Source: Hawksworthiomyces lignivorus
Taxonomy: Eukaryota > Ascomycota > Sordariomycetes > Ophiostomatales > Ophiostomataceae
Length of the DNA: 42,387 nucleotides
Assembly: GCA_002917075.1 (NCBI GenBank)
Contig: NTMA01000157.1
Coordinates: forward strand, 1-42,387
Direction of reading: 5' to 3'
Shown here: one piece after another, positions 18,742 to 39,930 of the stretch
Position numbering within the stretch: position 1 is the first letter of the stretch
Layout of the letters: every line of letters begins with the position of its first letter
Made by a program: the position numbers and the translations under genes
The notes under the pieces: generated by a model
Databases searched by the model: none
Seen by the model: only the letters and a program-made list of their open reading frames with translations
What the model was told of the DNA's origin: nothing

Positions 18742-21123
18742 GGGACTGATGGGAATTGCCTCTAATGGGATATGAAGCTTCACGTTTTATTATATTTCTT
18801 CAACTTCACGGCCTTTCTCTGTCCCCAAGGACAATGATCATCGGTTATGACAACGGACGAAGAATAGAAGACTCGGTGGTTCAGGTCATGGTGTCATGAA
18901 TCTATTTCTCTCCCTCTTAGTTTGCCTTCCTATCCTCTTCTTCACTCGCCTGAGAGAGAGCTCCTGTCTAGTTCTTTCAGCAAGCGGACTCGTTTTCTTT
19001 ACCTATGCATATTTGGTCTTGCTTCTTTTTCTGTATACATATAACTTCATGGGATCCGGTTAATAAATTGAGATTTGAAATTATCGCAAGTCTTTGCATC
19101 TTTGTGCCTCTGTATATTTTGCATGTGAATTTTGCTTTTGTGACGTAGACGCGTAAAGTACGAGGTGTATTCCATCACTCCAGGCTGAAAAAGACACGAT
19201 CGAGGCAGGCGCTCCTTTGCAGCATAAATTGCCTTTCTAGTCAAAGGAGAAGCTTGCTTCCGTGTCAGGAGACAGAAGAGGCAGGTGCAGACGACGTGTA
19301 CGATACGCGAGTATCAGGGCAAGAATCGACGAAGCGGAGCGAATTCTCAAGGGTTCCTCGCTCTTCTCATGCTAGCATCACGAATTTGATGCGTTTTCAA
19401 GGCACGAACAAGCTAGCACGTCATATACAACCTAGACAGGTTCCTTCTCATCTTGGTATTCACAACATAGAATCGCAAGTGGCTTAGAAGACTCGGGAAA
19501 GCAGATAAATGTTAAAAGATAAAGAAGGCAAATGCAAAGAATAGAGAAATAGAAAATGCTGCGATTACCTAATTCAAGAGAGATTTACGAACCCCTTTGA
19601 AGGAGGGAGAATCGCGACCCTTCGGGCGCTCTTACCTTGACTCTCCTCTTTTCCTATTTGTCTCCTCGGGGATTTTTCTTTCATCTCTTCTTCCCTAGAT
19701 TCCATTTGATTGCTTTAGCATTTGATGATCAGAACATCTGCCTTTTTTTATTCCACAGAAAATCCACAATCTACCTCAGGAAATAAAAAAGAGAAATCAG
19801 GCATTTCCCTGAAGCAGGAGCGACCACCTCCATATAGCCCGCAACTGTTGTTTGCCTTTCTTATCGTAGACTGTCTTTGTCGCCTTTTCCATAACGTGAC
19901 GTACATGACTTACCTTGAAAACTTTCGAGAAATTTGTACCGTTCTTTGAGCTTGGTTTCCTTTTTTGTGAGCGTAGCTATTATCAGCGGAAGAAATGGCT
20001 CTCGAAAAGTAGAAAATAAAAATAGATGATGAAGGTCATCTGCAAAAGAAAAAAAAAACCAGAGCAATATCATACTATTGACAATAGGCAAACTCTAGCC
20101 ATGAATTTGAAAGGAGGCAATTGCCTGTAAGAAAATGAAATAGAAGGAAGGAAAGAGGCAGAGAAGAGAGAGCGTACCAGAGCATGAAAAGCAAGAAACA
20201 GGAGGAAGGAAAGCAGGAGGGAAATTCCTAGAGTTCCTATACTCTTGGTTTACTTCTTACTTCTTACTCTAACTTAGCAAAGGAAGGCACATTCTACATC
20301 ATGTATTCTCCGTCTCAGCTATGCGTTTCTAACCTGCAATGCGTTCTTTCCATTTTTATTTACATCGTGAAGTATTTAAGAAGAGAAAGAGCCTAGGAGG
20401 ACAAAAGGAAAACAATATAGTTTTGAAAATAGGAAAGAGGTCGACGAGAGAAGGTGCAAAACAGTGGCATCCGAAAATCTATAAGAACCCCCCTGAGATC
20501 TCGTTCCTTCTCAATCTGCCTCCTCTCTCTTCTTCTTCTTCTTCTTCTTTTTGATCCATTCCACCTTTATCGTCTTCATTCTCCTTTGCTCACCAATCTC
20601 ATCTGTGATCCATCATCGTCGTCGACATTATCGACATCTGCCCGAACCATGTTCCTCTCCTTTCTGTGTTCCTTTATCCCATCACTTTTCTTAATCTGCC
20701 TTGTCTCACGACAACTCCTCATTCCTCTTCAACCTTCATACCATCTTCACCACAAAGAGATCCAGCATATTTCATCCTCTGGCTCTTGGCTTTCTTGGCC
20801 CGAGGCTTCATCCAATTTCTTCATATTCTTTGTCCGCTACATACACAATCCTCTTGTCAATCTATTGGACCACTCCTGCTTCTCACTTTCCTGCTCTCCG
20901 ATGCAAGATCCAACACTTGCTGGTTATCTTGATTTCTCCATCGACAAATGCGTCTCTTTCGAGGGCAGTATTATCCCAGGATCTGCAAGCTCACGCCACC
21001 CTTTCTCTATCAAGCTTCTTTGAGCTTCTTCCTTTATTTGATTTTGCTTTCTCTTCATACCCACGAGGTGTAATCCGAATTTCCTCTCCTAGATTTGCTT
21101 CAGATATATTTTGATAGCCTAGG

Positions 21124-21150
21124 CATCGAAAATAACGCCAGTTTTCGATG
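21124..21150. other. Hairpin with 9-bp perfect stem
   Basis: CATCGAAAA (21124-21132) is the exact reverse complement of TTTTCGATG (21142-21150), with a 9-base loop. It lies about 240 bases upstream of the snoRNA candidate. It could be half of an H/ACA RNA, a processing hairpin, or chance. Confidence 0.5.
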
Positions 21151-21390
21151 GCATACATGTGGCATATCATCATGAGCAAGGAAATTGTTTTCCAATTCAA
21201 AAGTGAGTTACCTCTTGTAAGGTACATGCCCACATGGTTCCAGCACTGACATTATGCCTCGTTTGTTGAGTTATCTCAGTTCACTTCTGCGGTCCCTGCT
21301 GCCGCATACTATGCTCGAGATTCTGAAAGAGATCTCGTCATCATCGACATCAACAAAGAGGTGAGATAACCCTTCGAATTGTGAACATGT

Positions 21391-21471
21391 ACCTAATGAT
21401 GAGAAAACAAATCTCTGAGCGTGTTCCCTGTGACGATGAGATAAAAATATACCTTGTTACGAACTGAAGGG
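21391..21471 (+). ncRNA. Box C/D snoRNA candidate
   Basis: Box C ATGATGA is at 21396-21402, D' CTGA at 21415-21418, C'-like ACGATGA at 21433-21439 and D CTGA at 21464-21467. A short terminal stem pairs CCT (21392-21394) with AGG (21468-21470). The overall size of about 80 nt is normal for the class. The sequence just upstream of box D contains ACCTTGTTACGA, complementary over 12 bases to TCGTAACAAGGT, the universally conserved 3' strand of 18S helix 44. By the D+5 rule the target is the U in GUCGU, equivalent to E. coli 16S U1498. It sits within a putative intron (21361-21533), the usual setting for fungal snoRNAs. No target was recognised for the D' guide. Confidence 0.65.
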
Positions 21472-23077
21472 CAAGTTCTGAAGGAAGTGTTTTCTTTTGC
21501 TCTCGGGGGTTTCTTTCACTACTTATCCACCAGCTTCGGCAGACAAAAAGGAAAAATTCTCACTTTTAGGTGTCGAAATTCGCACTGCAAGTGACGCACA
21601 AATTTCCCTAGAAGCACTTCACAGCAAAAACTCGGCCTTCGTCAGGAGTGATTTTCCTCTTGTATTTGAGAAGCTGCAATTTCGGTTCATTGGTCTCATG
21701 GGTTTAACGCACTGAGAAAAAAAAAATCTGCCTCATGTTGTTGATGCTATGGTGTTGGTGACGTTGACTTGGGCATAATATGACAGCTCTGTATGATTCA
21801 TGGTGAAAAGGTTTCTGTATGTAATCAGACTTAATTTGATATTTGGGAGATAGGCAGGACAATCTAATTTTCTACCACACAAATGAGAAAAATAAAGACT
21901 TAGTTACCACAAAATATTCAGGTTCGTGATTTTGCTTCAAGCCCTTAGAGAAATGTTTTGTTTCTGTCTAAGAGATAGCTACTGTGCCACATCCTTCTGC
22001 TATGCTTAATCCAGGTGGTGCAGAATGCTTAATTGTAAAAGAGATAAATCCCTGCCTACGGCAATTTGTTTCTACCGGTGAGAAGCTCATCTTTTATTGA
22101 TAAGAGTACGCCTATTAAATTTGGACGATGTGCGTCTTAACTTCCATTAAAAATACATCCTGGCAAGCTGCTATAGGATATGACTGAAGCCCCTTGCTAA
22201 TCTAGCTGCTTCAGCTGGTGATCATTGACATTTTTCACCATGAACATCGAGAATACGGTGGTTTCACCAAGGCGAAAATCGTGGCTTCAAATCTTGATCT
22301 TGCCACGTCCCAAAATCTGTCTTGCTCGACAACGATCAGCTCTGTCGCTGAGTGCGCAATACTGAGTGCCAATGTTAACCCGCATCGTTTACCAAGCTGG
22401 CGATTCGTATCAATGTGCAACCCTAGCTTTTCGCCGAAGTTTATCAGGTCGAGACCACTTGTATTTCCATTGCTTTTCAGTCAAACAAAGGCAAACAAGG
22501 TGCTTTTTATCGAGTTTCTCGCTGCTTTCTCTGTTCATCGTGGTGACATCCCAGCTCCTGGTGATCGCCCATATGTTGCCGCCAACTAGTTTATTAACAC
22601 ACCTCCCGCCAGTCCAGCTCAGCCTAGTCGTTGTCGTTGCTGTATTGAAAATTTTCTGGCTAAAAAAATTTGGTACTCTAAAACGAGTTTTTTTTTCTTT
22701 TTTATTTTTTTTATTTTTTTTTTATTTAAAAAAAAAGTAAAACATAATACGTCTTTCAGTGGAATGAGGCCAAATTCGAAGGACTGAAATCCTTCACATG
22801 TAAAATGAGCTGTTTGCTGCTTTTGATTGGTTAGCGTCAGTTGCCTTATGACGACAAGTGTCACACCAGCTGCCATCGCAAGCCTAACAGGTTTCTGTCT
22901 CTCTCGCCCTTACAGCTGGACTCATGCGAGAAATTCTCATGCATCAAATAAAAGGATCGCCACACTTCTGGCTCATGCCGTTGGTTTCTTTTCTAAACAC
23001 TGAGCTTGACAATCACGTCCACAACAATGTGCGAGTGATCTGAGCGCTCCCCAGTTTTCACCGTGTAGCTGAAACGT

Positions 23078-25083: not shown

Positions 25084-26486
25084 TTACCATTCGCGTACCT
25101 CGCCGCCTGGACCAATGAAGCCGGGCGACACCCATGCTTTGGTGTCCTTGGACAGCCGGCGCACCTGCTCCTCGTCTACCTCGATGCCCAAACCCGGACC
25201 GGACAGCATCTCGATGTAGCCGTCCTGGACGTTCCACACCTCTGGGTTCTTTGTGTAGCTCGTGAGATCCTGCTGGCCCAGCTGGCTGTTGTAGTGGATG
25301 CCCAGGCTCATCTCCTGGATGGCAAAGTTGGGGCTGGCGAGGTCGACCTGGACGCAGGCCGCCAGCGCGATGGGGCCCAGCGGGCAGTGCGGGGCGAGGG
25401 CGACGTCGTACGTCTCGGCCATGGCGGCGATGCGGCGCAGCTCCGAGATGCCGCCGACGTGGCAGACGTCGGGCTGCAGGACGTCGACGTGCGGCAGAAA
25501 GGGCCGCACGTCCCAGCGGCTGTGCAGGCGCTCGCCTAGCGCGATGGGCAGCGACGTCAGCCCCGCCAGCTCCTGCACGCCCGTCAGGTGCTCCGACAGC
25601 AGCGGCTCCTCGATGAACAGCGGCCGGTGCGGCTCCAGCGCCTTGGCCAGCTGCTTGGCCATGGGCTTGTGCACGCGGCCGTGAAAGTCCACCCCGACGT
25701 CCATGCCCAGCGCCTTGACCGCCTGCACCCGCGCCACGCAGCCGTCCAGCGCCGACGGCACGTCCAGCCACCCCAGATCCTCGGTCGCGTTCATCTTGAC
25801 GGCCCGGAAGCCCTGCTCGCGGCGGGCGAGCCTGGTCCGGGTGGAAAAGGCAGTTAGAGAATGGAGCGAGTCGACCAAGCTAAAGCACGGGGGGTGATCG
25901 CCTCCAAGAAAAGCTGCTCTGCGCTGTACTTACGCCTGCTTCTCTACATCGTCTGGCCGGTCGCCGCCGATCCACGCATAGACGCGCAGCTTTGTCCTGA
26001 GCTTCCCGCCGAGTAATTGGTGAATTGGCACCCCCAGCTTCCGGGCTGCGGCAATCCGGAGGGGTTTCGTCAGTTCGTCTTAAAAGATGCACCGGGGGAA
26101 GCTGCTGGGAGAAAGGCGCTAACTTACCTTTCAAGTCCCACAGGGCGATGTCAATCCCCGATAGCGCGCTCATAAACACCGGGCCTCCTCTGTAGAAGCT
26201 TGTACGCCATGACAGCTGCCAGATGTGCTCAATGTCGCTATTTTGCATCAGCGGACAGATGCTTCTTCAATGTGGAGGGTAGGTCGCATCTGGATCGGCG
26301 TCCGGCTTACTCTGCCTCCATCCCCTTGTAGCGCTCAAACCATGCGTCAAGACAGCCCTCCACTGCCTGTGAATGCCCCTCTAGTGATGCCTCGCCCCAA
26401 CCGACATTGCCAGCCTCGTCGGTGATCTTGACAAAGAGCCACCGGGGCGGCACCCGAAACCATTCCATGGTCGCAATCTTACCCAT
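25084..26486 (-). CDS. D-galactonate dehydratase-like enzyme (enolase superfamily, DgoD type)
   Basis: Predicted Mg-dependent dehydratase converting an aldonate such as D-galactonate to its 2-keto-3-deoxy acid. Four exons on the minus strand: 26486-26311, 26237-26128, 26045-25934 and 25831-25084, giving 381 residues, the same size as bacterial DgoD. The start [20 protein letters not shown] matches the family start. Family landmarks are visible: VKMNATED (general base Lys region), [15 protein letters not shown] and IEEPL and [11 protein letters not shown] (metal ligands Asp, Glu, Glu), and LAPHCPLGP (catalytic His). It ends in GEVREW, like the bacterial enzymes. It is the left member of the six-gene cluster, and its promoter carries the shared TCGGAAAA element. 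Substrate specificity within the mandelate racemase subgroup cannot be fixed by eye; another sugar acid is possible. Confidence 0.92.
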
Positions 26487-26966
26487 ATTGCCGCTTTTTT
26501 TTTATGGACGAGGGCGTACGTCTGTTCAGCGGAAGGCGGCGCGGAAGCTGAAGCTCTCGGTTCGAACAGTTGATATTTCGCGCAAGGGATTTCTCACGAA
26601 GCTCTGCACAGTGAAGGATACGGATACCACGAGAACCCAAAAGGAGGAGAAACAATATCTACGATCAAATAGCTGGCCTAGACCTGAGGTATAGCTTTCG
26701 GCGTCGGCATAATGACCTCCAACGACCCCCCCACAGCGGTTGCGGGGTCGGAGTTTCGTGTACTTGCCAAATGGAGAAGGTTCTCGGTGCCTTTTACATG
26801 GCTGTGCTTTTCCGATCGCTTTTCCGGCGCTACCAAATCGCCATTTACGCTTTTCCATCTTCGCGTCTTAGGTTGCAAAGCCTAGCTTTGCCTAGCTTTC
26901 CAAACAAAACACGAGAAACAGGGTAAATTTTCTAGTCTATTCTTATGTAACGATGAGTTCTGTCTA
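26487..26966. other. Promoter region of the DgoD-like gene and 3' flank of the aldo-keto reductase gene
   Basis: A 480-bp gap between two minus-strand genes. It should hold the aldo-keto reductase 3' UTR (right side) and the DgoD-like promoter. It contains the shared cluster element as a direct pair at 26808-26827. No coding gene seen. Confidence 0.6.
26808..26827. promoter_or_regulatory. Candidate cluster regulator sites (direct pair) upstream of DgoD-like gene
   Basis: TTTTCCGA at 26808-26815 and TTTTCCGG at 26820-26827. On the minus strand these read TCGGAAAAGC and CCGGAAAAGC, 12 bases apart and about 320 bases upstream of the DgoD-like start. The first matches the strict shared word and the second differs at one position. 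Confidence 0.6.
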
Positions 26967-28344
26967 TCAATGAGCTGCATCATTGGCCTCTTTCAGCTTT
27001 CTTTGTGCAGCCTTCCATTCTTCGACGGCACCCTTAAGCGCATCCTCGGTCCACTCGCCAAAGATGTTGAGCCCTAGGCGCTTAGGGAAGTTGTATCGGC
27101 TATGGCGATCGAGGGAGTTAAGCTTGGCGAACACTTCATCCGGAAGCTTGAAAACTAATGGTTGAACGCTGTTAGCAAGCCACACACCTTGCTGCCAGGA
27201 TGTGGAGGTCATGAGGATGGGATGTACCTTGCAAGTTCTGCTGGATGCGACTCGGCGTGACAGACTTGGTCAAGACAACGGTACCTCTCTGTACCGCCCA
27301 GCTCAGAAGCACCTGCGCAGGCTCTTTACCAAGAGATTTGGCGAGCTCAATGACAACAGGATCATCTAACGCTCTGTGGCACCCCCCCGTTAGTAACTTT
27401 GTGGAGTAATGCAGAGCAGAGAATCAGGCGGAGGCTTACCTAGGCAAATTGTAAATGTTGTTGCCCATTGGACTATAGGCTTCGACAACAATGTCCTAGT
27501 TTGGTCAATACACTTTGTTTCAGCAACCAGAGTAATATGCAGTCAAGAATGCCTCGCTCACGTTTTTGTGGCACCATTCAAGCAGCTCTGGCTGCTGCAG
27601 ATATGGGTGCGCCTCGATCTGGTTGACAGCAGGTTTGATCTCGGCCGTCTCCCAGAGCTCTTCTATGCGCTCTTTTGTGAAATTTGACACACCAATGGTC
27701 CGTATTTTGCCTTTCTTAACCAATTCCTCCATCTTCTTCCATGTTTCGGAAATGGGCACATCAATAATAGCCATATGCTGAGTTGCTGGATTGATGGGAA
27801 ACCGCTCCGTGTCGTTGACTGGTTCAAACGCGACAGGCCAGTGAATCTATTTGTATTCCTATTAAAATTTGTGAAATGGACATATTTCTCCTCACAGAAC
27901 ATGCAACCTACCAGATAAAGATCTAAGTAATCGGTTTGGAGGTCGGCGAGCGAGATATCAAGGTGTCTCTCAACATCTTCGGGCTTGTGATGGGTGTTCC
28001 ATAATTTGCCGGTCAACTAATAGCAATGTTAGGAAGATGTCATCAAAGGCGTAGAGGAAGTGAAATTATACAGACGAAAATATCTTTACGATCTACACCA
28101 GATGCCTTGATGCCATCTCCGACTTCCTTTTCGTTGTCGTAGCATGCTGCTGCATCAATGTGACGGTAACCGAGCTTGAGAGCCGTTTCCACAGCGTTTT
28201 TGACCTCATTTGGCTTCGATTGCTTGATACATGTGTCAGACAATGAAGTACCAGTGACGAAGAAGCGACACTCACCCATGTACCCAAACCCACTGTTGGT
28301 ATGGAGAATCCAGAGTTCAGCTTGAAAGTTGTCGACAGAGACAT
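26967..28344 (-). CDS. Aldo-keto reductase
   Basis: Predicted NADPH-dependent reductase of aldehydes or ketoses (GCY1/YPR1-like fungal AKRs). Seven exons on the minus strand: 28344-28276, 28222-28076, 28016-27912, 27846-27562, 27495-27440, 27373-27228 and 27154-26967, giving 331 residues. Catalytic tetrad landmarks are present: Asp and Tyr in [13 protein letters not shown], Lys in [11 protein letters not shown], and His in [12 protein letters not shown]. The strand [20 protein letters not shown] and the cofactor segment [16 protein letters not shown] follow, as in the family. All seven joins keep frame and conserved sequence; the second donor (GTCTGT) is the weakest splice site. The gene is divergent from the transporter gene and shares the TCGGAAAA element. 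By context it may reduce the aldehyde released by the A-T-R enzyme or a sugar intermediate; this is inference. Confidence 0.94.
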
Positions 28345-28550
28345 TGTGGATGTACGTCCAAAGGTTGGTGCACGGGCTCTCTAAATTCAAATAAACCCGG
28401 TTATGCTACAGAAAAGAAACACTGTTCAATTGTTTCAATTCTTCGCCCTTTAATTTTGTTGTTTTGATTTAAACTGACCTCTCGTGAACATCTTGATTCC
28501 CCGTCCCCGCATTTGAAATTCCGGCACTCCGTCTGCTTTCCGGACAGCGA

Positions 28551-28575
28551 TCGGAAATGCATGCCACTTTTCCGA
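28551..28575. promoter_or_regulatory. Candidate inverted cluster regulator site upstream of aldo-keto reductase
   Basis: TCGGAAAT (28551-28558), a 9-base spacer, then TTTTCCGA (28568-28575). The CGG and CCG triplets face each other across 17 bases. It lies about 210-230 bases upstream of the aldo-keto reductase start. Confidence 0.6.
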
Positions 28576-29123
28576 CCATATAGGTGCTTCACTCACTTTA
28601 CTTAGCATGCGAATCAATAGATATTTGGAAGTCTCTTTTGACCAGAGAATGGGGATATTCGCCATACGGTATGCGGCTAGTTCTCTCGAGTTCATTTTTT
28701 ATAATATTCTTTTACGTGATATCACAATGTCACCCAGTGTTCGGATGTCGCCAACAGGCGTTTTAGTCTGTGCCGACTTTCTTTCATTCGGCATAAGCAG
28801 TGCATGAGCTGGAGGCTTCGCCAGACTCTGAAACATGAGTTAAATGCAATACATTTCTTGACAAGAATGGTATACACGGCCTTTTTCCTATGAGCTCCAT
28901 CGGCGAGGCTGTCAGCTTGACTCGGCAAGAACGCTTCGCCGTTGTATCGAGATGCCTCTCGAGTTTGAATGTTACACGCAATCCCAAATTACTCCATCAT
29001 TGCTGGAGCGTTGACAAAAAGTATAGGAGATATGCTCGATTAGCTGTTAGACTACAAGAGGCCGGGGCACGTTGGAGACTTGACCTGACTGAAATCATGG
29101 AGCATTCCCCAGGCAACCCCAGA

Positions 29124-29148
29124 TCGGAAAACCAAGTCGCTTTTCCAT
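29124..29148. promoter_or_regulatory. Candidate inverted cluster regulator site upstream of transporter
   Basis: TCGGAAAA (29124-29131), a 9-base spacer, then TTTTCCAT (29141-29148). It has the same geometry as the site at 28551 but the right half is imperfect (CCA instead of CCG). It lies about 320-340 bases upstream of the transporter start. Confidence 0.55.
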
Positions 29149-29358
29149 GCACTAGTCTGCCATCTCACCCCATGGGGAACTTACGGATGTAGTAAGACTA
29201 TTCTGTAGGGCAGTTTGGCCAAGTTTTTTCACCCTTTCTCCTTTTTGTCGGTTGTTAGACCTGGAAGCAAGGAACAGGTCATAACCTGGAATATTGGCTG
29301 GATATGACTGATAGATTGGCTCGGAAGCAACCCCAGGAATGAAAGGGGAGTCGTCCGG

Positions 29359-29366
29359 TATATATG
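29359..29366 (+). promoter_or_regulatory. TATA-like box of the transporter gene
   Basis: TATATATG about 100 bases upstream of the transporter ATG, followed by a CT-rich leader. Position and sequence suit a fungal core promoter. Confidence 0.4.
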
Positions 29367-29465
29367 AAGACAGGAGTCGCTATTCCTTCGAGAATTAGAC
29401 CGCTTCTTTCTATTTGTTTCTCTTTCTCTTCATTCGGTAAATTTTTTATCAGTATCAATACAACC

Positions 29466-31324
29466 ATGGCTGATCAACAGGTTATGCCGTCGGGACCGGC
29501 TAGCAAGCCCTCTTTTGTCCAAGTCGAAAGCAGTTCGGCCTACCAGCAGCATGACAGTGAAAAGGACGTGAAAACCATGTTGGCAGCACATGGAGGCGAT
29601 GTTGCTCTGGCACTCTTTCACAACGTGGATGAGATTGGCGAAGTAATTGATCCAGAAGAAGAGCGCAAGGTTGTCCGCAAGATTGATCTCATGCTCATTC
29701 CCATGTTTGCTGTCTCATACATATTTTTCTTTGTAAGGCCACAATTCGAACACAGCATGAAGTGATATAAGACAAGCAAATGCTAACGCAGATTCATGAT
29801 GCAGGTGGACAAAACTACGCTCTCATATGCAGCTGTCTTTGGTATCCAAAGTGACCTCCATATGGAGGGTGCCGATTACAGCTGGTTGTCATCGCTGTTC
29901 TACTTTGGCTTCCTAGCGTGGGCTATCCCGACCAACCTGCTGATGCAGCGCTTCCCCGTGGCCAAGTACCTGGGCGCAAACATCATGCTCTGGGGTATCC
30001 TTCTCATGTGCCAGGCGGCTTGCAGTAACTTTGCGTCTCTTGCCGTTCTGCGGGTCTTGGGCGGTGCAGTCGAGGCTGTTGCCGACCCGGCATTCATTCT
30101 CATCACTAGCATGTGGTATACTCGCAAGGAGCAGCCCGTTAAGATCGGTATCTGGTATACGGCAGTGGGTCTAGGTACGGCTTGTGGCGGCCTGCTCGGC
30201 TATGGCATCGGCCACATCCATGGTTCATTGCCCTCATGGAAGTATGAGTTCCTGATTATCGGTGCTTGCTGTACCGTCTGGGGTGCGGTCATCATGGCGT
30301 TTCTTCCCGACAACCCGGTCACAGCCCGGTTCTTGACAGACCGCGAGCGTCGCATCGCCGTTGAGCGGTTGCGAGACAACCAGACGGGCATTGAAAGCAA
30401 GACGTTCAAGCCGCGCCAAATGCTCGAGGCATTCATAGACTACAAGACGTTCTTCTTTTTCATGATTGCCTTTTGCCAAGCCATTGTCAATGGCGGTACC
30501 ACCAATTTTGGAACCCTCATCACCAAAGGCTTCGGATTCAATACTTGTAAGTCTCGCGCAGAATTGTGCTTTTGGCATACTATTTCTCACATTAACGTCC
30601 TCTTTCAAAGTGGCCACCACCCTCTTACAAATTCCGTATGGCGCTTTCATCTTCCTCATCATCTTGTTTAGCGTCTACGTCAACGACAAGCTGCCTCCGA
30701 ACAACCGCTGTTTTACGCTTGCTGTCTGTGTTCTTCCTTGTGTGGCGGGTGCTTTTGGGTTACACTATGTCCCAGACTCTCAGCGAGTTGGACGGCTCGT
30801 CTGCTACTATGTAAGCCCATATTAGCCAATCTTTCGTTGAATTACAACGCTGTAGTCGTCTCTAACAAGCCTTCAACTGCAGTTGACCGGATCTCTTAAT
30901 GCCTCTTTCGTTTTGTTGATGTCGCTGCAGACAGCTAATATCTCGGGACATACGAAAAAAGTTGTCACTTCGGCTTGCATGTTTCTAGGTTGGTCACTAT
31001 ACTTTTCTATTGATTTGCTCTTAACTATTGAATATTGCTAATGCAGTTGAAGGTTATTGCACGGGAAACATCGCAGGCCCTTTCTTTTATAAGACGGACC
31101 AAGCACCAACCTACCCGCTTGGGATCTGGAGCATGGTTGTAGTCCTGTTGCTAGAGATCGTCATTGTCATTGCGCTACGATTTCTCTTATCTTCTGAAAA
31201 CAAACGCCGCGACCGACAGCAGGGCATTGACCAGACACATCATCAGGAGCGCAGGGATTTGGATGCTACAGCCTTTGAGGATATGACGGACAAGGAGAAT
31301 CTCAATTTTAGATACATATACTAA
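29466..31324 (+). CDS. MFS transporter, anion:cation symporter family (Dal5/Tna1-like)
   Basis: Predicted plasma-membrane proton symporter for an organic anion. Five exons: 29466-29732, 29805-30546, 30611-30810, 30883-30988 and 31047-31324, giving about 530 residues with roughly twelve hydrophobic segments. Family landmarks: RKIDLMLIPMFAVSYIFFFVDKTTLSYA split by intron 1, YSWLSSLFYFGFLAWAIPTNL in the early helices, FLPDNPVTARFLTDRER in the central loop, and GYCTGNIAGPFFYKTDQAPTYPLG near the end. Exon 5 may begin at 31047 or 31053, because two in-frame acceptors lie six bases apart (CAG and AAG); the second gives the more family-like FLGYCTGN. Dal5 relatives carry allantoate, nicotinate, pantothenate and similar anions, and bacterial galactonate transporters belong to the same superfamily branch, which fits the neighbouring DgoD-like gene. 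The substrate is inferred only. Confidence 0.93.
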
Positions 31325-31500
31325 AGAGTCCCACTGAATGCAGCTTAGTTACAGACAAGAGCAAATTGACAGTTTGGATGGGTGGATCAACTGTGTCTTT
31401 TCCAACTGGGAGTAGCTTTCTGCTTTTGGATGTTCTAGCCTTTTGCCTTGTGGAATAACATCTTACTGCTTGATATTTATGTTTACTGCTTGCTCCTTGA

Positions 31501-32618
31501 TTAGAATATAGCAATGGCATTTGGCGGACTGGCAACGCCGCCCGGAACTTTGAGCGGCACGCTGCTCACAAAGAACGACCACCTGTTCAGTTCCTCACAC
31601 TTCTTCACCAATGCTTCCAAGTCAAACATCTCGCCGATGGGCACTCCCCACCCAGCCAGAACCCACTGGTGAAGCAGCCCGCCGCTTTGCATCTCTGCCT
31701 CCCAGGCCTCGCCCTTCCATATACCGCCCGTTTCGGTGTGTGCGCCGGCAATCGGCGCCTGCTCAAAGCTTGGAGCATCACCGGCCACAGCAGCAAAATT
31801 GCTCTCCCACAGCCACTGTAGCATGTCTGAGGTTGGCGATACGCCGAGGAAGTTAGGCTCCGGCCGGTCTGCTAGGGCCTTTCGTTCGGTAAACGTTAGC
31901 TTCTCGTAGGCTTCTGTGAAGCCGCTTCGTATAAAGAGGATGTCTCCTTTATGGATTGTCAGGCCCTGCTGCTGAATGCATTCTTTCAGATCATGGAGCG
32001 TAATGGCCGTCGACTCGAATGGCGCAATGGGCTGGTTGTGCTTCTTGCAATAGCCGGCATAGTCTATGAGAACTCCGCGGCCGACGATGCCTCCCTTTTC
32101 CACCCATGCTAATGGCGGAAAAGCCCAATCAGCCAAGTCAACTCTTCGAAGCTACATAATTTCTTATTTTGAACGATCTACTCACCGTCTATGCTAATCA
32201 CGTCAGGGCTCTCCAGCTGCTCGGCTGTCACGTTGCCGTAGAAGCGCTTTGCCTTCTGGTAGCCGTAATGCCGGAAGCCGTCCCACTGGCTGGAGCCCTG
32301 CGTGTTGAACTCGAGGTAATCATCATTGACGGTTCGAGGACGGCCTTCGGGATCGTTACGCACGATGCGCTTCCACTTGAGCGACGGCCGCCCAAAGCTG
32401 GGATTCGTGGGCTTGTTCAGAGACCAGTCCAGGGAGACACGCTCGCCCGTCCGGATTTCCTGCGCCGCAGCCGCCGCAACAACGGCCGGCGTCAGCATGT
32501 TCAATGCTCCCAGAGCGTCATTTTTTCCGTACAGGCCCCAGGCATTCCCAGGAGGGCCAGTCGGATCAAGAGGCAAGCTCAAGAAAGGAGGGCGCTCGGG
32601 GACGTCACTCGGTGCCAT
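31501..32618 (-). CDS. Cyclase-family hydrolase (PF04199, kynurenine formamidase/isatin hydrolase-like)
   Basis: Two exons on the minus strand: 32618-32186 and 32108-31501, giving 346 residues. The family contains metal-dependent amidohydrolases acting on N-formylkynurenine, isatin and related amides or lactams. Visible landmarks are WGLYGKNDALGALNMLTP at the start, the metal-site region NTQGSSQWDGFRHYGY, GRGVLIDYAGY, GDILFIRSGFTEAYEKL, VAGDAPSFEQAP and LHQWVLAGWGVPIGEMFDLE. The canonical HxGTHxDxxxH motif is altered: the first His is replaced by Gln and the second by Gln (SSQWDGFRH), as in the QWDG subgroup of fungal and bacterial relatives. The gene is divergent from the regulator gene, shares its 403-bp promoter, and is convergent with the transporter gene (176-bp gap). 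Its role in the cluster is unknown. Confidence 0.9.
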
Positions 32619-32800
32619 CTTCGAAGTTCGCTATCTAAGCTCTCAGGTTGAACTTTTCTGCAGTAAGCACGAGCTGAGCTTGTGTGAATTGGCTTGCTGA
32701 GCTTCTATCTGCCATATGAAACATGACCATCCTGAAGCCATGTCTATGACGAGCTGCTTGCGGGGAAGGCTATTGTGCTCGGGGTTGCATTCCTACGAGC

Positions 32801-32808
32801 TCGGAAAA
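32801..32808 (+). promoter_or_regulatory. Candidate cluster regulator site TCGGAAAA
   Basis: Exact match to the shared word, about 183 bases upstream of the cyclase-family start. Confidence 0.6.
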
Positions 32809-32913
32809 CGAGACGAGTGGATTGAAATGCGCCAACCAAATCAGAACAAAGGGCGGGGGGGATGACGGATAAGGCGCCGTCGAGCTGCTAGAGGCTGCCG
32901 AAACAAATAAAGC

Positions 32914-32921
32914 TTTTCCGA
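32914..32921 (-). promoter_or_regulatory. Candidate cluster regulator site TCGGAAAA (minus strand)
   Basis: TTTTCCGA on the plus strand, embedded in the extended form TCGGAAAAGC on the minus strand, about 108 bases upstream of the regulator start. Confidence 0.6.
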
Positions 32922-33021
32922 TCTAATTCGGCTCTCGCGCCCTGCTCCATATCCTTTCCTTCATTATGACAGATCTTTGGTGTTTTCCATCCCGTATCTC
33001 ACAATTCGGGCGGAAACTATA

Positions 33022-35648
33022 ATGAATTCTGATGTCTCGTCTCCACATCGGCAGCAGCAGGAAATCGAGCCGACGATCGATAGCCCTGCAGCGAAAAGAC
33101 GGAAAAGAGACAGCACCGTTTCACGGCAGCGTGTAACGCGTGCGTGCGATCGGTGCAAGAGGTATGGTGGCATCGTCTTCCCAGCCTGTAATTGCTAATA
33201 TGTTGGTTATTGATTCATTTGGATAGACGCAAGGTCCGCTGCACAGGGGTACGGCCCTGCGAGCATTGCATTGAGGCCGACGCGGTATGCACCTACGAAT
33301 CGTCGTATGCACGCGGCCGGCTGCCGTCGATTCCCGCATCGTATGGCGTGCTTGCCTCACCAGTCTCAACCGAGCCGTCGGTTCCTAGTCATCTGATGGA
33401 TGCCAGCCCTGGGCTGGACAGAGACCGGGATGCAGGAGTCCGAGACCAGCCGCCGGAGCCAACCGAACGCCTGTCCTTTCTGTCGGCGGCTGCGGTGGAG
33501 ATGGATCACCGGATGGCTGAAGGAGTGATGGTTCCTTCTGCCGCGACCGGAGGAATCCAAACCTCGCTTCCTGGCCCCGAGCCAGCTATAGCTGCATCAT
33601 CGCGGGTGTCTCCCGAGCCATCTCAAACGGATCGGCAGGGCCACTATGTCGGACCGGCATCAGGGGTGTCCTTTTTGCTACGTGTGCAGAAACGGCTGTA
33701 TGACAATGTTTCATTTTCACAGAAGTCCTCGTCGTCCATCTTTACGTTTGGAGACGCTCCGCTTCCAGAGTATGACGCCTCGTTCCCTCTTCTCTTGACG
33801 AGGCCGGAGGCTACCCATCTGCTACAGCATTATTTCGACTTTGCTGTGCCGACCCACCGATTCCTGCACCGGCCCACGGTGGAATCATGGCTGGATGAGT
33901 TTTACAAAACCAAAGGGCGCATGATTGACCGCGAAGATGGCCGCGCGCAGGTCGCTCTGCTTTTCATGATATTTGCTCAGGCAAGAGACTATCTCTCACC
34001 GTCGTCCGTGACCCCAGACATGGACAAAAGGTACCCATTCTGCCATCTTTCTGCCGAAGCTCGCCTTGTCTTTATTTCGATTCTTCTGTTTCTAATTTGC
34101 CATCTCAGCGCAATGTATTACCTTGCTGCTGAACAGCAGCTGTCCAAGGAAAAAGGGTCGGTCCGCCTTGCCAGCGTCCAGGCGCGCTTGTGCCAGTGCT
34201 TTTACCTTTTATCCCAATCTCGCATCAACCACTGCTGGAGCCTTTTTGGGACAACCGCACATCTTGCGCTTGCCATTGGGCTAAACCGAAATCGCCGTGC
34301 AGATCCAGCTGGCGGCGTTGGCTACATAGACGTCGAGTGCCGCAGACGCACATTCTGGTGCGCATACAGCTTAGACAACTATCTCAGTGCCGCACTTGGG
34401 AGGCCGCGCACTTTTCACGACGAAGACATCGACCAGGAACTGCCGTCTATTGTTGAAGATAAAGACTTGTTTCACGGCGAGATTAAGCTAACTCAGTCCC
34501 GTGGCCAGCCGTTGATGCTTGCTCCCGTTGCCCACGTCCGGTAGGGCAGCCATTTTGCTCTCCTACACACACCAAAAAAAAAAAGGCTTTGAGACTAACT
34601 CCCTTGAGACTGTCTAAGATTGTCAGCATGATCCTTCGCGACCTGTACTCGATCCGTCCAATATCTTCGGCTGCACGGGCAGCACTAACTGCAAAGCATA
34701 CCAAAGCGCTGGACGCTTGGCGCGGCGACATCACACGCTTTCTTGATGCTGATCATGTCTCGGCATCGCTATTGATCCCTATTTTCCAGCGTCAGAGGAA
34801 TGTGCTGAACTTGGCATACTGGCACGCCATGCTTCTAACACACCGGCCTCTCCTTCTAAGCAACTTTGCTTATCTTCAACGGAAAGGTGCCGGAACCAGT
34901 GCAAACGCCGGCACTGACTCGAGAGACCAGTCTGCGCGGACGCAGGCACAAGAGAGCATGAAGGCGTGTCTCAACGCGGCCATGCGCATTATTGAAATTG
35001 TGGATGAGCTCTTCCAGGGGAAGCAACTATTTCAAGCCTACTGGGTGTGTGACTTTGCTCGAAGAATCTCATCCTTTCGTATCTAAGACTGACTGTTTTA
35101 AGTTTACAATGTATTTTGCCTTCTCGGCGGTTGTTGTTGTGTATGTCTATATCATTCAACACCAGTCGTCGCTTCAGGAGACACATCGCGAATATCTTTC
35201 AGCAGCCGTCGAGTGCCAGAGCCAAATTGCGAGCCTGGCTGAGAACGGCTCCCTCACGCAAAGATACACGCTCGTCCTGGAAGAGCTCCGGCTTGTGACG
35301 CTCCACCACATGGAGCAGAATAAACAGCCGAATGGGCAGTCGAACGCACAATCGAGCGATCGGCCTGGAGGCAGCGGCAATTCCAGCAGCGCCGTTCCGG
35401 GCAGCAGTATCCAATATATTAGCGCTGGCATGGCCTCCCAGCCGGCCAGCATGACAAGCGTGGACAACCGGGCGTCGCTCGACGTTCCAAACTTACCTCT
35501 GGCGGAGCCAATAACTGAGTGGGATGGAAGTCCTAGCAGTTCTCTAGCTGATGTCACAAGCTGGGGATATTTCGATTCCATGGTCTCATCTGGTTTCTGG
35601 CCTCTTGATACTTTGCTCAGTAGCGACGACCAGCTGCTACGGATCTGA
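33022..35648 (+). CDS. Zn2Cys6 transcription factor with fungal-specific domain
   Basis: Probable pathway-specific nuclear regulator of the cluster. Five exons: 33022-33161, 33227-34030, 34109-34540, 34609-35044 and 35103-35648, giving 785 residues. The binuclear zinc cluster is split by intron 1 and restored as CDRCKRRKVRC...PCEHC...VC, with spacing C-x2-C-x6-C-x5-C-x2-C-x6-C (about residues 40-67). It is preceded by the basic stretch AAKRRKRD. The fungal_trans domain (PF04082) covers about 220-560 and includes DKSAMYYLAAEQQLSKE, SWCLFG-like NHCWSLFGTTAHLALAIGLNR, RRRTFWCAYSLDNYLSAALGRPR and AYWFTMYFAFSAVVVVYVY. An upstream in-frame ATG at 32977 is an alternative start. The 78-nt second intron preserves frame and lacks stops. 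The protein class binds CGG-containing sites, matching the TCGGAAAA elements across the cluster, including its own promoter. Confidence 0.94.
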
Positions 35649-35673
35649 CCGCTGAATTAATTCCTTAATTTTC

Positions 35674-35736
35674 AAAAAAATAAAAATAAAAATAAAAAAT
35701 AAAATAAAATAAAATTAAAAAATAAAAATAAAAATT
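35674..35736. repeat. A-rich (AAAAT)n repeat
   Basis: Imperfect AAAAT/AAAAAT units immediately 3' of the regulator stop codon. Confidence 0.85.
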
Positions 35737-36006
35737 TAAGCATCGTCTGATGATATCGTAAGCTGCGTCATAGCAAGCTTCAGAATTCTAAGGACTGCAT
35801 GGTGCTTTTGAAGACTTTCATAATTCTATTAAAAGGCACTTAGGAGCTTATACATTGTTCAGCACATCATTTCGTCCAATTACAAAAAGTATGCCTCACC
35901 CAGAGGTTCAATGAGGCGCCGAAAAGGCCTCATTGGCTCTGTTTCCGTCACTAACACGGATTGTGGATCCCGGGCGCTCCACGCTAAATACCGATGTTGT
36001 GGTAGA

Positions 36007-36056
36007 TTTTCCGAGTTGCTTTTCCGAGATGTGATGGCCCTGTTCGGAAAAGCAAC
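36007..36056. promoter_or_regulatory. Triple cluster regulator site with 13-bp inverted repeat upstream of A-T-R gene
   Basis: TTTTCCGA occurs at 36007-36014 and 36020-36027, and TCGGAAAA at 36044-36051. The last two extend to a perfect 13-bp inverted repeat: GTTGCTTTTCCGA (36015-36027) and TCGGAAAAGCAAC (36044-36056), with a 16-base spacer. The group lies 264-313 bases upstream of the reductase start and is the densest site group in the cluster. Confidence 0.65.
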
Positions 36057-36319
36057 TACATGCTTCATTTGTCCGGCACGACGCAGACTGGCCACACGCT
36101 GGTCTTTCTTAGATATGCGGATTACCTAGTTTGCGCATGTGGATTTCCTATGTTGTGTAGAGAGATGTGAGATCTAGATGCATACTCTATTGCGCCATTG
36201 TGACTATTTGCCACTCTACTTTGCTACTTCTTATATGCCGTCTCGCCTCTGTTGTGTATAGATCTCAACGCGAGGTCGTAAAGTAATTCGACATAGTATT
36301 ACAATCTCTCGCACTCATC

Positions 36320-39300
36320 ATGGCCACTACAGCACCGGCGGTGTCTCCCTTAAATCACTTCTTGGCTGCTGGCAGCGATGCCAGCATCAGGCAGGCTGAC
36401 TATGGCGCTGCAGCCTCTTTAAATGGCAGCTCCCTGGATGATAGCCCGCCGAGGATGGTCAACGACCTGTTGCTCCGTCGCGTCCGAGAAGCCCCGGATG
36501 CGCCATTCTTTGGTTATCCCGCTACTGCCAAGGGCAAGGCTGACTATGTCTTCTACACCGTCGATGAGATCAACCGGTATGCAGATGCGGCTGCACAGCG
36601 ATACTTGGAAGCCGGCGTCGTGCCCAAGGTGGGTTGCGTTCAATATCATGACTCTTACCTGCAATTAGAAGGAGCGGCACTGACAAATGATGTGCAGCAT
36701 CCCGGCGCCCAGAAAGCGGAGGTAGTGGCTCTCCTGGCGCCGTCCAATGTGGACTACGTCGTCTCCATATTCGCCCTCTCCCGGCTTGGGTTTGCTATCC
36801 TGTTCCTGTCAAACAGGCTGGCGGCAGACGCCATTACGAACCTGCTGCAGATGACAGACTGCACCAAGCTGATCGTCTCGCCGCACTACGCGTCCATGGT
36901 GGGCAAGCTGGCGGAAGAACACCCGCAGCAACCCGTCTCCGTCTACGACCTGGTAGACTCTGCGCGGTACACATCCACACATGCGGAAGCGAGCACAGGC
37001 GGCAGCGCAGTCGCGGCAGCGAGCGCGCTGGCGGCGGGCCAGGACCCGTCGTCGCGCATCGCGTTCATCATCCACTCGTCGGGCTCGACGGGCCTGCCCA
37101 AGCCCATCTTCCAGACGCACGAGGCCTGCCTGGCCAACTACTCGAGCGGCATCCCGTACCGGGCGTTTATCACGCTGCCGCTGTTCCACAACCACGGCAT
37201 CTCGACGCTGTTCCGCGCGCTGTGCGCGGGCAAGCAGGCGGCGCTGTACAACGCCAGCCTGCCGCTGGCGGGCAGCACGCTGGTGGAGGCGATCCGCAGC
37301 GCGGAGCCCGAGAGCCTGCACTGCGTGCCGTACGCGCTGAAGCTGATGGCGGAGGACCCGCGGGGCGTCGACACGCTGCGGCGCCTGAAGCTGGTCCTGT
37401 TTGGGGGTAGCAGCTGCCCGGACGAGCTGGGCGACCGCCTGGTCGCCGCCGGCGTGTACCTGGCCGGCCACTACGGAGCGTGCGTTTTCCTCCCCGCCGC
37501 AGCATCTGCGTCTGCATTCGCTGCTGCTCCTTGGACATGTCTGCTAACTCGCTTCCCAGGACCGAGATGGGCCAGCTGATGACGTCGTTCCGCGACCCGG
37601 AGACGGACAAGGACTGGGCGTACATGCGGCCGGTGGCGGCGGCCAAGCCGTTCCTGCGCATGGAGCCGCGCGGTGGCGACACGTTTGAGTGCGTGGTGCT
37701 GGACGGCCTGCCGTCCAAGGTGGTGTCGAACGCGGACGAGCCGCCCAACTCGTTCCACACGCGTGACCTGTTCGCGCAGCACCCGCGGCGGCCGGACGCG
37801 TGGAAGTACCTGGGGCGGATCGACGACCGCGTGACGCTGGTTAACGGTGAGAAGGTGCTGCCGATCCCCTACGAGCACCAGATCCGGCAGCACGACCTGG
37901 TGCGGGAGTGCGTCGTGTTCGGCGTGGGCCGCGCGGTGCCGGGCTTGCTTGTGGTGGCCGGCGACCGGGCGCGCGGCATGCCGCGGGCGGCGGTGCTGGA
38001 CGCTCTGATGCCGGCGGTTGAGGCGGCCAACGCGCGCACGGAGGCGTTTGGTCGCATCTCGCGCGAGATGGTCGAGGTGCTCGACGCCGACACCGACTAC
38101 CCGCGCACGGACAAGGGCACGGCGATCCGCGCGGCGGTGTACCGGCAGTTCGCGGCGACGATCGACGCCGTGTACGCGCGGTTTGAGGCGCCGACCGCCG
38201 CAGAGGATGACAGCGGCAGCGGCAGCGGCAGCGGAAAGACAAACGGCGCGCAGGGCCGGCTCGTCCTGGACGAGCCCGCGCTCGAGGCGTACCTGCTGGA
38301 CGTGTTCGCCAACAAGCTGGGCGTGGCGGGCCTGCAGGCCGAGACGGACCTGTTCGAGGCCGGCGTCGACAGTTTGCAGGCGCTGACGGCGCGGGCGCGG
38401 ATCGTGCGCGAGATCGAGCTGGGCGGCCGGGTGCCGGCGCAGAACGTCGTGTTCGAGCACCCGACCGTGCGCCTCCTGGCGCGGCACCTGGTGGCGCTGC
38501 GCTCGGCCGGCTCGGGCGACGAGACGTCCAGGTCGGCGGCCGCGGATGAGATCCAGGCAATGCGGGACCTCATTGCCAAGTACAGCGACTTCTCCGCCTT
38601 TGCGGCAGCGGCGCCGCAGTCGACGAGCAGCAAACCCAGCCCGTCGGAGACGGTCCTGCTGACGGGCGCGACGGGCTCGCTCGGCGCGCACATCCTGGCC
38701 CAGCTGGTGCGCGAGCCGCACGTGGCCCGCATCTACTGCCTGGTGCGGGTGGCGTCGGCAGAGGCCGCGGGAGAGCGCGTCCGCGCAGTCCTCCAGGCAA
38801 AGGGCCTAGACCCGCTGCCGGCTGCCAACGCAGAGCCGCAAGGGACCGACAAGGTAGTGTGCCTGGCGGCCGACCTGAGCCGGGCGGACCTTGGGCTGGA
38901 CACTGCAGCGGCGGCCGCCCTGCAACGCGAGCTGACCGCGGTGGTGCATGCGGCGTGGGCGGTCAACTTCAATCTGGGCGTGCGCAGCTTCGAAGCGCAT
39001 CATATCCGCGGAACGCGGCACCTGCTGGAGGCGTGCCTGAGCGGCACCGGCCGGCCGCCGGCGCGCTTCTTCTTCTGCTCGTCCATCTCGGCCGGCGCCG
39101 GCACACCCATCCCCGGCACGGTCGCCGAGGCGCCCATCGCCGACCTGGCGCACGCGCAGCCCATGGGCTACGCGCGGTCCAAGGTGGTGACGGAGCACGT
39201 GGTCGCCGCCGCCGCCGCGCAGACTGGCATGACGGCGCGCGTGCTGCGGCTGGGCCAGATCGTCGGCGACACGCGCTGCGGCATCTGGAACACTACCGAG

Positions 39301-39930
39301 GCCATCCCGCTGCTCGTCCGCAGCGCGCTGACCACGGGCGCACTGCCAGCTCTGGATGAGGTACGTTCCTTTTGGGTGGGGTGGAGGCTCTCTTCTCCCC
39401 TTCCTCCTCTCCCTCTCTTTTTGCTACCTCATAAAATAGGAAAGACTGACCTTGCTTCCGCACAGACGCCCTCATGGATGCCCGTAGACAAGATGGCCCG
39501 CGCGGTGCTCGAGCTGTCCGGGCTCGTTCGCGGCGAGGACGGCGCAGCTCGCCGCACAGAAGACGACGCCGACCTGTCGCTCGTCTACCAGGTGCAGAAC
39601 CGCCGCCTGTTCCGCTGGACAGACGAGCTGCTGCCAGCGCTCCGGGCGGCGGGCCTCGCGTTCCAGACGGTGCCGCAGCGCGAGTGGGTGGCACGGCTGC
39701 GGGCGTCAGACCCGGACCCCCGCCGCAATCCGGCCATCAAGCTGCTCGACTTCTTCGCTGAGAAGTACGACAATGACCGGCCAGGGCGCGCCGGGCTGGT
39801 GTTTGAGACGCGCCGCACCGAGGCGGCCAGCCAGGCCATGCACGACGGGTTCGACGTTATTGGCAGCGGCCTCGTCGAGAAGATGGCAGCCTGGTGGAAG
39901 ACGCAGTGGTCAGAAGCCCAAGAGCCGTAA
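36320..39930 (+). CDS. NRPS-like adenylation-thiolation-reductase enzyme (carboxylic acid reductase)
   Basis: Predicted to activate a carboxylic acid with ATP, load it on a phosphopantetheine carrier and release it reductively with NADPH as an aldehyde or alcohol. Four exons: 36320-36628, 36698-37479, 37560-39360 and 39466-39930, giving 1118 residues. The adenylation domain spans about 40-570 with core motif HSSGSTGLPKP (about 229-239), the A5-like HYGATEMG (about 361-368, rebuilt across intron 2) and GRIDDRVTLVNGEKV (about 450). The carrier domain has the phosphopantetheine serine in DLFEAGVDSLQAL (about 627). The thioester reductase domain (NAD_binding_4, Lys2-like, about 728-1118) has TGATGSLGAHIL (NADPH site) and the catalytic Tyr/Lys of YARSK (about 901). 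There is no condensation domain. Introns 1 (69 nt) and 3 (105 nt) preserve frame and contain no stops, so naive translation runs through them. The third exon is strikingly GC-rich. The enzyme needs a phosphopantetheinyl transferase encoded elsewhere. Substrate unknown. Confidence 0.94.

Follow-up and report, generated by a model that had tools for sequence, protein, structure and literature searches.

A promoter word upstream of six clustered genes in Hawksworthiomyces lignivorus suggests a cluster-specific Zn2Cys6 regulator

Cluster-specific Zn2Cys6 regulators are a general kind in fungal pathway clusters, wherein the regulator gene lies inside the cluster and a shared word is found upstream of the cluster genes, including the regulator's own. 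The spacings CGG-N6-CCG, CGG-N10-CCG and CGG-N11-CCG are the labels of Ppr1, Put3 and Gal4, respectively, and the site of AlcR is of the GCGG type. For the comparison of motifs, we drew on excerpts of four papers (PMC5468973, PMC12941744, PMC5559640 and PMC7466126). According to these excerpts, the fission yeast Zn2Cys6 protein Pho7 recognizes an asymmetric site, 5'-TCG(G/C)AxxTTxAA, and binds two sites independently; monomer binding is considered by the authors, who also name AlcR as a monomeric Zn2Cys6 binder (PMC5559640). In the excerpted accounts of the other two systems, the site of yeast Rgt1, given as a glucose-responsive factor, is CGGANNA (PMC7466126), and the site of Aspergillus AmyR is either CGGN8(C/A)GG or CGGAAATTTAA (PMC5468973).

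The locus compared here with these systems is a six-gene cluster of the ascomycete Hawksworthiomyces lignivorus, located on contig NTMA01000157.1 of assembly GCA_002917075.1; the window is the whole stretch of DNA that was analysed, 42,387 nt in length. An original prediction, made by eye from the letters, had proposed that the 8-mer TCGGAAAA defines a regulon of six genes, one of which encodes the Zn2Cys6 regulator of the set. An exact search of the window returned nine copies in total, eight of which stand in the cluster at just the positions that had been read by eye (Table 1), and the only other copy, as predicted, is at 5922 in NOT1 coding sequence, inside a 2165-aa frame that matches five CCR4-NOT subunit 1 families. 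The six genes were spliced by eye on GT-AG introns, and the resulting predicted models are all backed by Pfam matches. With these spliced models, the eight cluster copies do fall in intergenic DNA as proposed, within four upstream regions that total 2,675 bp, and the word is absent from the gap between genes C and D and from the counted 3' flanks of the cluster. Every gene has at least one copy at a distance of 101-335 bp from its ATG, close to the range of about 110-340 bases that had been estimated. The distances are 322 bp for A, 224 bp for B, 335 bp for C, 183 and 296 bp for D, 214 and 101 bp for E, and 306, 293 and 269 bp for F, two copies being common to D and E, which share one upstream region. 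The predicted starts of A and D resemble those of their relatives P0074 and P0004, and that of E resembles P0001 only loosely.

Table 1. Predicted genes of the cluster and the copies, near-copies and pairs of the promoter word between them (positions in the window).
Feature	Positions	Strand	Description
Gene A	25084..26486	-	Galactonate-dehydratase-family (MR/MLE) enzyme; 381 aa; 4 exons
TCGGAAAA site, promoter A	26808..26815	-	Exact search
Near-copy CCGGAAAA(GC)	26820..26827	-	Direct repeat 12 bp from the 26808 site; as 10-mer CCGGAAAAGC, 26818-26827; by eye
Partial site GGAAAAGC (TGGAAAAGC)	26849..26856	-	
Gene B	26967..28344	-	Aldo/keto reductase; 331 aa; 7 exons; Aldo_ket_red
Inverted pair TCGGAAAT-N9-TTTTCCGA, promoter B	28551..28575		Exact word 28568-28575 on -; TCGGAAAT at 28551 is a near-copy
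TCGGAAAA-N9-TTTTCCAT, promoter C	29124..29148		Exact word 29124-29131 (+) and degraded mate; same 25-bp geometry
Gene C	29466..31324	+	Major facilitator (MFS) transporter; 530 aa; 5 exons; MFS_1
Gene D	31501..32618	-	PF04199 'putative cyclase' family protein; 346 aa; 2 exons
TCGGAAAA site, D-E intergenic region	32801..32808	+	Exact search
TCGGAAAA(GC) site, D-E intergenic region	32914..32921	-	Exact search
Gene E	33022..35648	+	Zn2Cys6 transcription factor; 785 aa; 5 exons; Zn_clus, Fungal_trans
TCGGAAAA site, promoter F	36007..36014	-	Exact search
TCGGAAAA(GC) site, promoter F	36020..36027	-	Direct repeat 13 bp from the 36007 site
TCGGAAAA(GC) site, promoter F	36044..36051	+	Everted relative to 36020
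Gene F	36320..39930	+	Adenylation-carrier-reductase (A-T-R) carboxylate-reductase-like enzyme; 1118 aa; 4 exons

The 8-mer is part of a longer site of 10-12 bp, YCGGAAAAGC-like and often paired. The near-copies at 26820 and 28551, which are absent from the original prediction, both form pairs with exact sites, and together with the eight exact copies they give ten sites, which were aligned into a matrix of 12 columns. With a threshold of 14 bits, the matrix recovers its ten source sites, a further one in the window, which lies in NOT1, and two across 168 kb of background; the ten sites are no independent test of the matrix because it was built from them. CGG is preceded by T in nine of the ten sites and by C in the remaining one, and the cluster sites therefore do not have the GCGG core of the AlcR type; their likeness to AlcR lies in monomer binding, which is proposed for the cluster sites also. 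As in the asymmetric Zn2Cys6 site of Pho7, a TCGGA start is present in nine of the ten; however, neither the TTxAA half nor the full Pho7 pattern occurs in any of them, and the gene context is unrelated. The Rgt1 motif CGGANNA also fits 9/10 sites, although this motif is very loose and the comparison is one of the site only and not of the protein. The second form of the AmyR site opens with CGGAAA, and promoter B has CGG-N8-CGG twice, the final CGG of one being that of site 28551; however, neither AmyR form starts at any of the ten sites. The RhaR arrangement CGG-N11-CCG was likewise found at 0/10 sites, and the CGG-N6-CCG, CGG-N10-CCG and CGG-N11-CCG spacings start at none of the ten. The likeness to cluster-specific regulators is one of layout: gene E, confirmed as a Zn2Cys6 gene in the middle of the cluster, lies inside it, and the word is upstream of every gene including E. 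No publication pairing TCGGAAAA with a Zn2Cys6 protein was found in the open-licence literature.

Genome-wide, TCGGAAAA occurs 1,368 times in 43,707,421 bases (191 contigs), a count consistent with the 1.3 copies per 42 kb that had been expected beforehand; at this rate, the 2,675 bp of the four regions should hold about 0.08 copies (0.084). Under a Poisson model, the chance that they hold eight is 5.6e-14, a figure uncorrected for the fact that the word and the region were picked post hoc. The density in the four upstream regions is 2.99 per kb, compared with one copy in 54,980 bp of non-coding background (17 loci of the same genome, crudely masked), which is a 109.6-fold difference with a half-count added. 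An equal density elsewhere had been set beforehand as evidence against the regulon, and in this sampled background the density was not equal. When all 8-mers of the four regions were ranked with no prior choice, TCGGAAAA came first, being present in four of four regions and having three copies in 157 kb of background. In the window as a whole, its nine copies stand against a mean of 1.58 and a largest count of 6 in 100 dinucleotide shuffles. The extension to TCGGAAAAGC, which had been ascribed to several copies, is seen in four places in the window, where 0.09 are expected.

The clustering might in principle be produced by chance, local base composition or duplicated DNA, which we regard as highly improbable. 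The word and the region had been selected after looking, and A+T-rich bins, such as 28001-29000 with 44% G+C, favour A-tract words; however, eight copies of any word (words with three or more different letters being counted) were reached in none of 1,000 dinucleotide-preserving shuffles of the regions, wherein the maximum was 5, and TCGGAAAA itself had a mean of 0.19 and a maximum of 5 in 2,000 shuffles. As for duplication, pairwise agreement of the 20 bp that follow the ten 10-mers averages 28% and reaches 60% at most (45 pairs), and because of this low average agreement the ten sites are not one duplicated segment; 36020 and 36044 alone share a few more bases beyond the 10-mer. Chance, a duplicated segment and a composition effect were dropped in view of the shuffles and the disagreement of the flanks.

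The proteins predicted from the cluster include one candidate regulator and several putative enzymes. In gene E, the zinc cluster scores 30.5 bits against PF00172 (cut-off 21), with the pattern CX2CX6CX5-12CX2CX6-9C present, and the fungal middle homology domain scores 110.7 bits against PF04082 (cut-off 23). Gene A carries the N and C domains of MR/MLE enzymes (PF02746 and PF13378) and passes the NCBIfam galactonate dehydratase model NF010624, a bacterial model, with 502.9 bits vs a cut-off of 311; its nearest solved relative, 3rr1 (384 bits), is itself only a 'putative D-galactonate dehydratase'. Aldehyde reductases are among the matches of gene B, and gene D has no NCBIfam match. Gene F has the domains AMP-binding (PF00501), PP-binding (PF00550) and NAD_binding_4 (PF07993) in A-T-R order, and solved thioester reductase domains and carboxylic acid reductases are among its matches; it scores far short of the cut-off of NF041592, the equivalog model for bacterial carboxylic acid reductases (109.6 bits vs 1300). 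Judged by their families, the enzymes would dehydrate and reduce a putative sugar-acid substrate. For this enzyme set, no evidently relevant publication was found among the titles and abstracts of the open-licence literature.

Homologues of E come from many ascomycetes, the best among the matches listed being P0001 of Sporothrix eucalyptigena (60%), and gene F has a 70% match in Grosmannia clavigera; taken together, these matches suggest a fungus of the Ophiostomatales. Linkage was compared for E, F and B by using the best 120 listed homologues of each and matching contigs by size. Among these homologues, E and F were found on a common contig in other ascomycetes 18 times, E and B 18 times, F and B 41 times, and all three 12 times; the matched contigs, some of them megabases long, indicate co-location and not adjacency. 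In Pestalotiopsis fici, the locus tags 08542, 08544 and 08546 belong to genes of the B, F and E types, respectively, and in Verticillium dahliae g7020 is of the E type and g7021 of the F type. Fused gene models were also present, in four of the best 120 listed homologues of E and in one of the 120 of F. The regulator is joined to F in P0121 of G. clavigera, in the same order as here, to D's family in P0004, and to A's family in P0028, P0071 and P0074. A scan of viral contigs gave no relatives of the cluster DNA.

Gene E thus has the traits of a cluster regulator: it is inside the cluster, it is linked elsewhere to relatives of F and B and to members of the A and D families, and the motif is upstream of all six genes. 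We put the probability at roughly 0.6 that E is a cluster-specific, self-controlling regulator which acts on A, B, C, D, F and itself through the TCGGAAAA sites. The E protein would read CGG followed by an A-tract, with a consensus of about YCGGAAAAGC, and would bind the eight copies and the two near-copies; bound E would then switch on A, B, C, D, F and its own gene, autoregulation being proposed because copies lie in its own promoter. Of the six-gene regulon as originally predicted, the part that stands is a non-random word limited, within the window, to the upstream regions of the six genes apart from the copy in NOT1 coding sequence, and a Zn2Cys6 gene in the middle of the cluster; from these we infer E as the binder and the joint response of the genes.

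Alternatively, the sites might be used by a different, genome-wide regulator, either another Zn2Cys6 protein or an unrelated factor, that controls the cluster together with other genes; this seems unlikely to us. The 1,368 copies spread across the genome would suit such a factor, as would word pairs or triplets upstream of an S15-type hydrolase frame (C1:1298970; L001 4971-4994), upstream of an acyl-CoA-dehydrogenase-like gene (C57:399547; L002 4948-4983) and between DUF3425 and DUF1907 frames (C161:10397; L006 4898-4931), and these outlying groups are possibly distal targets or chance. However, neither copies nor pairs exceed their reversed-pattern controls. The word is rarer genome-wide than its reversed form (1,368 vs 2,077; for TCGGAAAAGC, 98 vs 119), and therefore the excess at the cluster is local; the 7-mer pairs amount to 17 vs 27 strand hits in direct, 12 vs 20 in inverted and 12 vs 28 in everted orientation. 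A wide regulator should also give other rich places, whereas four of the 98 genomic TCGGAAAAGC copies are here and every other 10 kb holds at most two; such a group of four arose in 3 of 20,000 random placements. A distal regulon, pursued by the genome-wide search for paired words, was not retained, the candidates found having counts not above the reversed-pattern control.

Paralogous clusters sharing the word were also considered and rejected. Four regulator paralogue loci of the same genome, on C111, C157, C29 and C182, are without enrichment (no TCGGAAAA in two stretches of 10 kb and one copy in each of two stretches of 9 kb), nor does any of them show a CGG word of similar strength; the code is therefore not seen in these relatives. 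At one of these loci (L025, G000:C111:192501-202500), a regulator paralogue is close to a dehydratase paralogue, and no TCGGAAAA is present.

Neighbouring sites form direct repeats at 12 bp in promoter A and 13 bp in promoter F, an inverted pair at 25 bp in promoter B, a 25-bp pair with one worn arm in promoter C and an everted pair in promoter F, and the two sites between D and E are about 111 bp apart. Because neighbours may be direct, inverted or everted, and because no CGG or CCG partner stands within 20 bp of site 29124 on either side, one E molecule per site, or weakly cooperating molecules, would be the likelier arrangement. A further pointer comes from the predicted structure of P0001, folded as a single chain (mean pLDDT 64.9), in which a confident zinc cluster at about residues 61-90 is followed by a low-confidence coil at 108-248; no dimerising helix is therefore predicted beside the cluster, and this predicted fold lends weak support to a monomer. 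Monomer-like binding at the cluster sites is accordingly favoured, although we take it as no more than about an even bet.

The other possibility, which we find somewhat doubtful, is that E acts as a conventional homodimer on CGG pairs, single copies being incomplete half-sites. This is a variant of the explanation preferred above, and the confidences given to the two overlap. A homodimer would fit the near-perfect 25-bp inverted pair CGG-N17-CCG in promoter B, the same geometry with one arm degraded in promoter C, and the direct CGG at N17 for sites 32914 and 36007, so that four of the ten sites (28551 and 28568, which are one pair, 32914 and 36007) have a CGG or CCG partner downstream at N17. 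It would also fit the two AmyR-like CGG-N8-CGG arrangements of promoter B, which lie at 28541 and 28542 on opposite strands. However, promoters A and F use direct repeats instead, site 29124 stands without a CGG or CCG partner as noted above, CGG-N11-CCG is absent from the four regions, and no single orientation and spacing suits all ten sites.

If E binds these sites as the regulator of the cluster, an ascomycete cluster that is linked in many species gains a switch, and overexpression of E could show what the cluster makes or degrades. Such binding would also be a data point on zinc-cluster proteins that read CGG without one fixed partner half-site. What had been a sequence-only hunch is now a precise and cheap test, involving one DNA-binding domain, a 10-bp word and six promoters.

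With less confidence, the enzymes may act on a sugar acid such as galactonate, which would be taken up by C, dehydrated by A, converted to an aldehyde via F and then to an alcohol via B, and a compound of this pathway might be the inducer. A more sweeping proposal, which we offer tentatively and consider rather less probable than its converse, is that a Zn2Cys6 regulator which reads DNA as a monomer, through a CGG-plus-A-tract code of its own (YCGGAAAAGC), runs a widespread, undescribed ascomycete pathway, wherein a sugar acid is dehydrated and then reduced by an A-T-R carboxylate reductase and an aldo/keto reductase.

Several minor features of the window were also observed. At about 19000-23000, a block of 40-42% G+C lies amid richer DNA, and the frames listed within it reach 196 aa at most. 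In promoter F, a 14-bp inverted repeat, AGTTGCTTTTCCGA / TCGGAAAAGCAACT, at 36014-36057 flanks the two inner sites. Upstream of gene E, an 18-codon frame occupies 32966-33022, and its stop codon TAA overlaps the ATG of E by one base (TAATG); if transcribed, this frame could allow reinitiation control.
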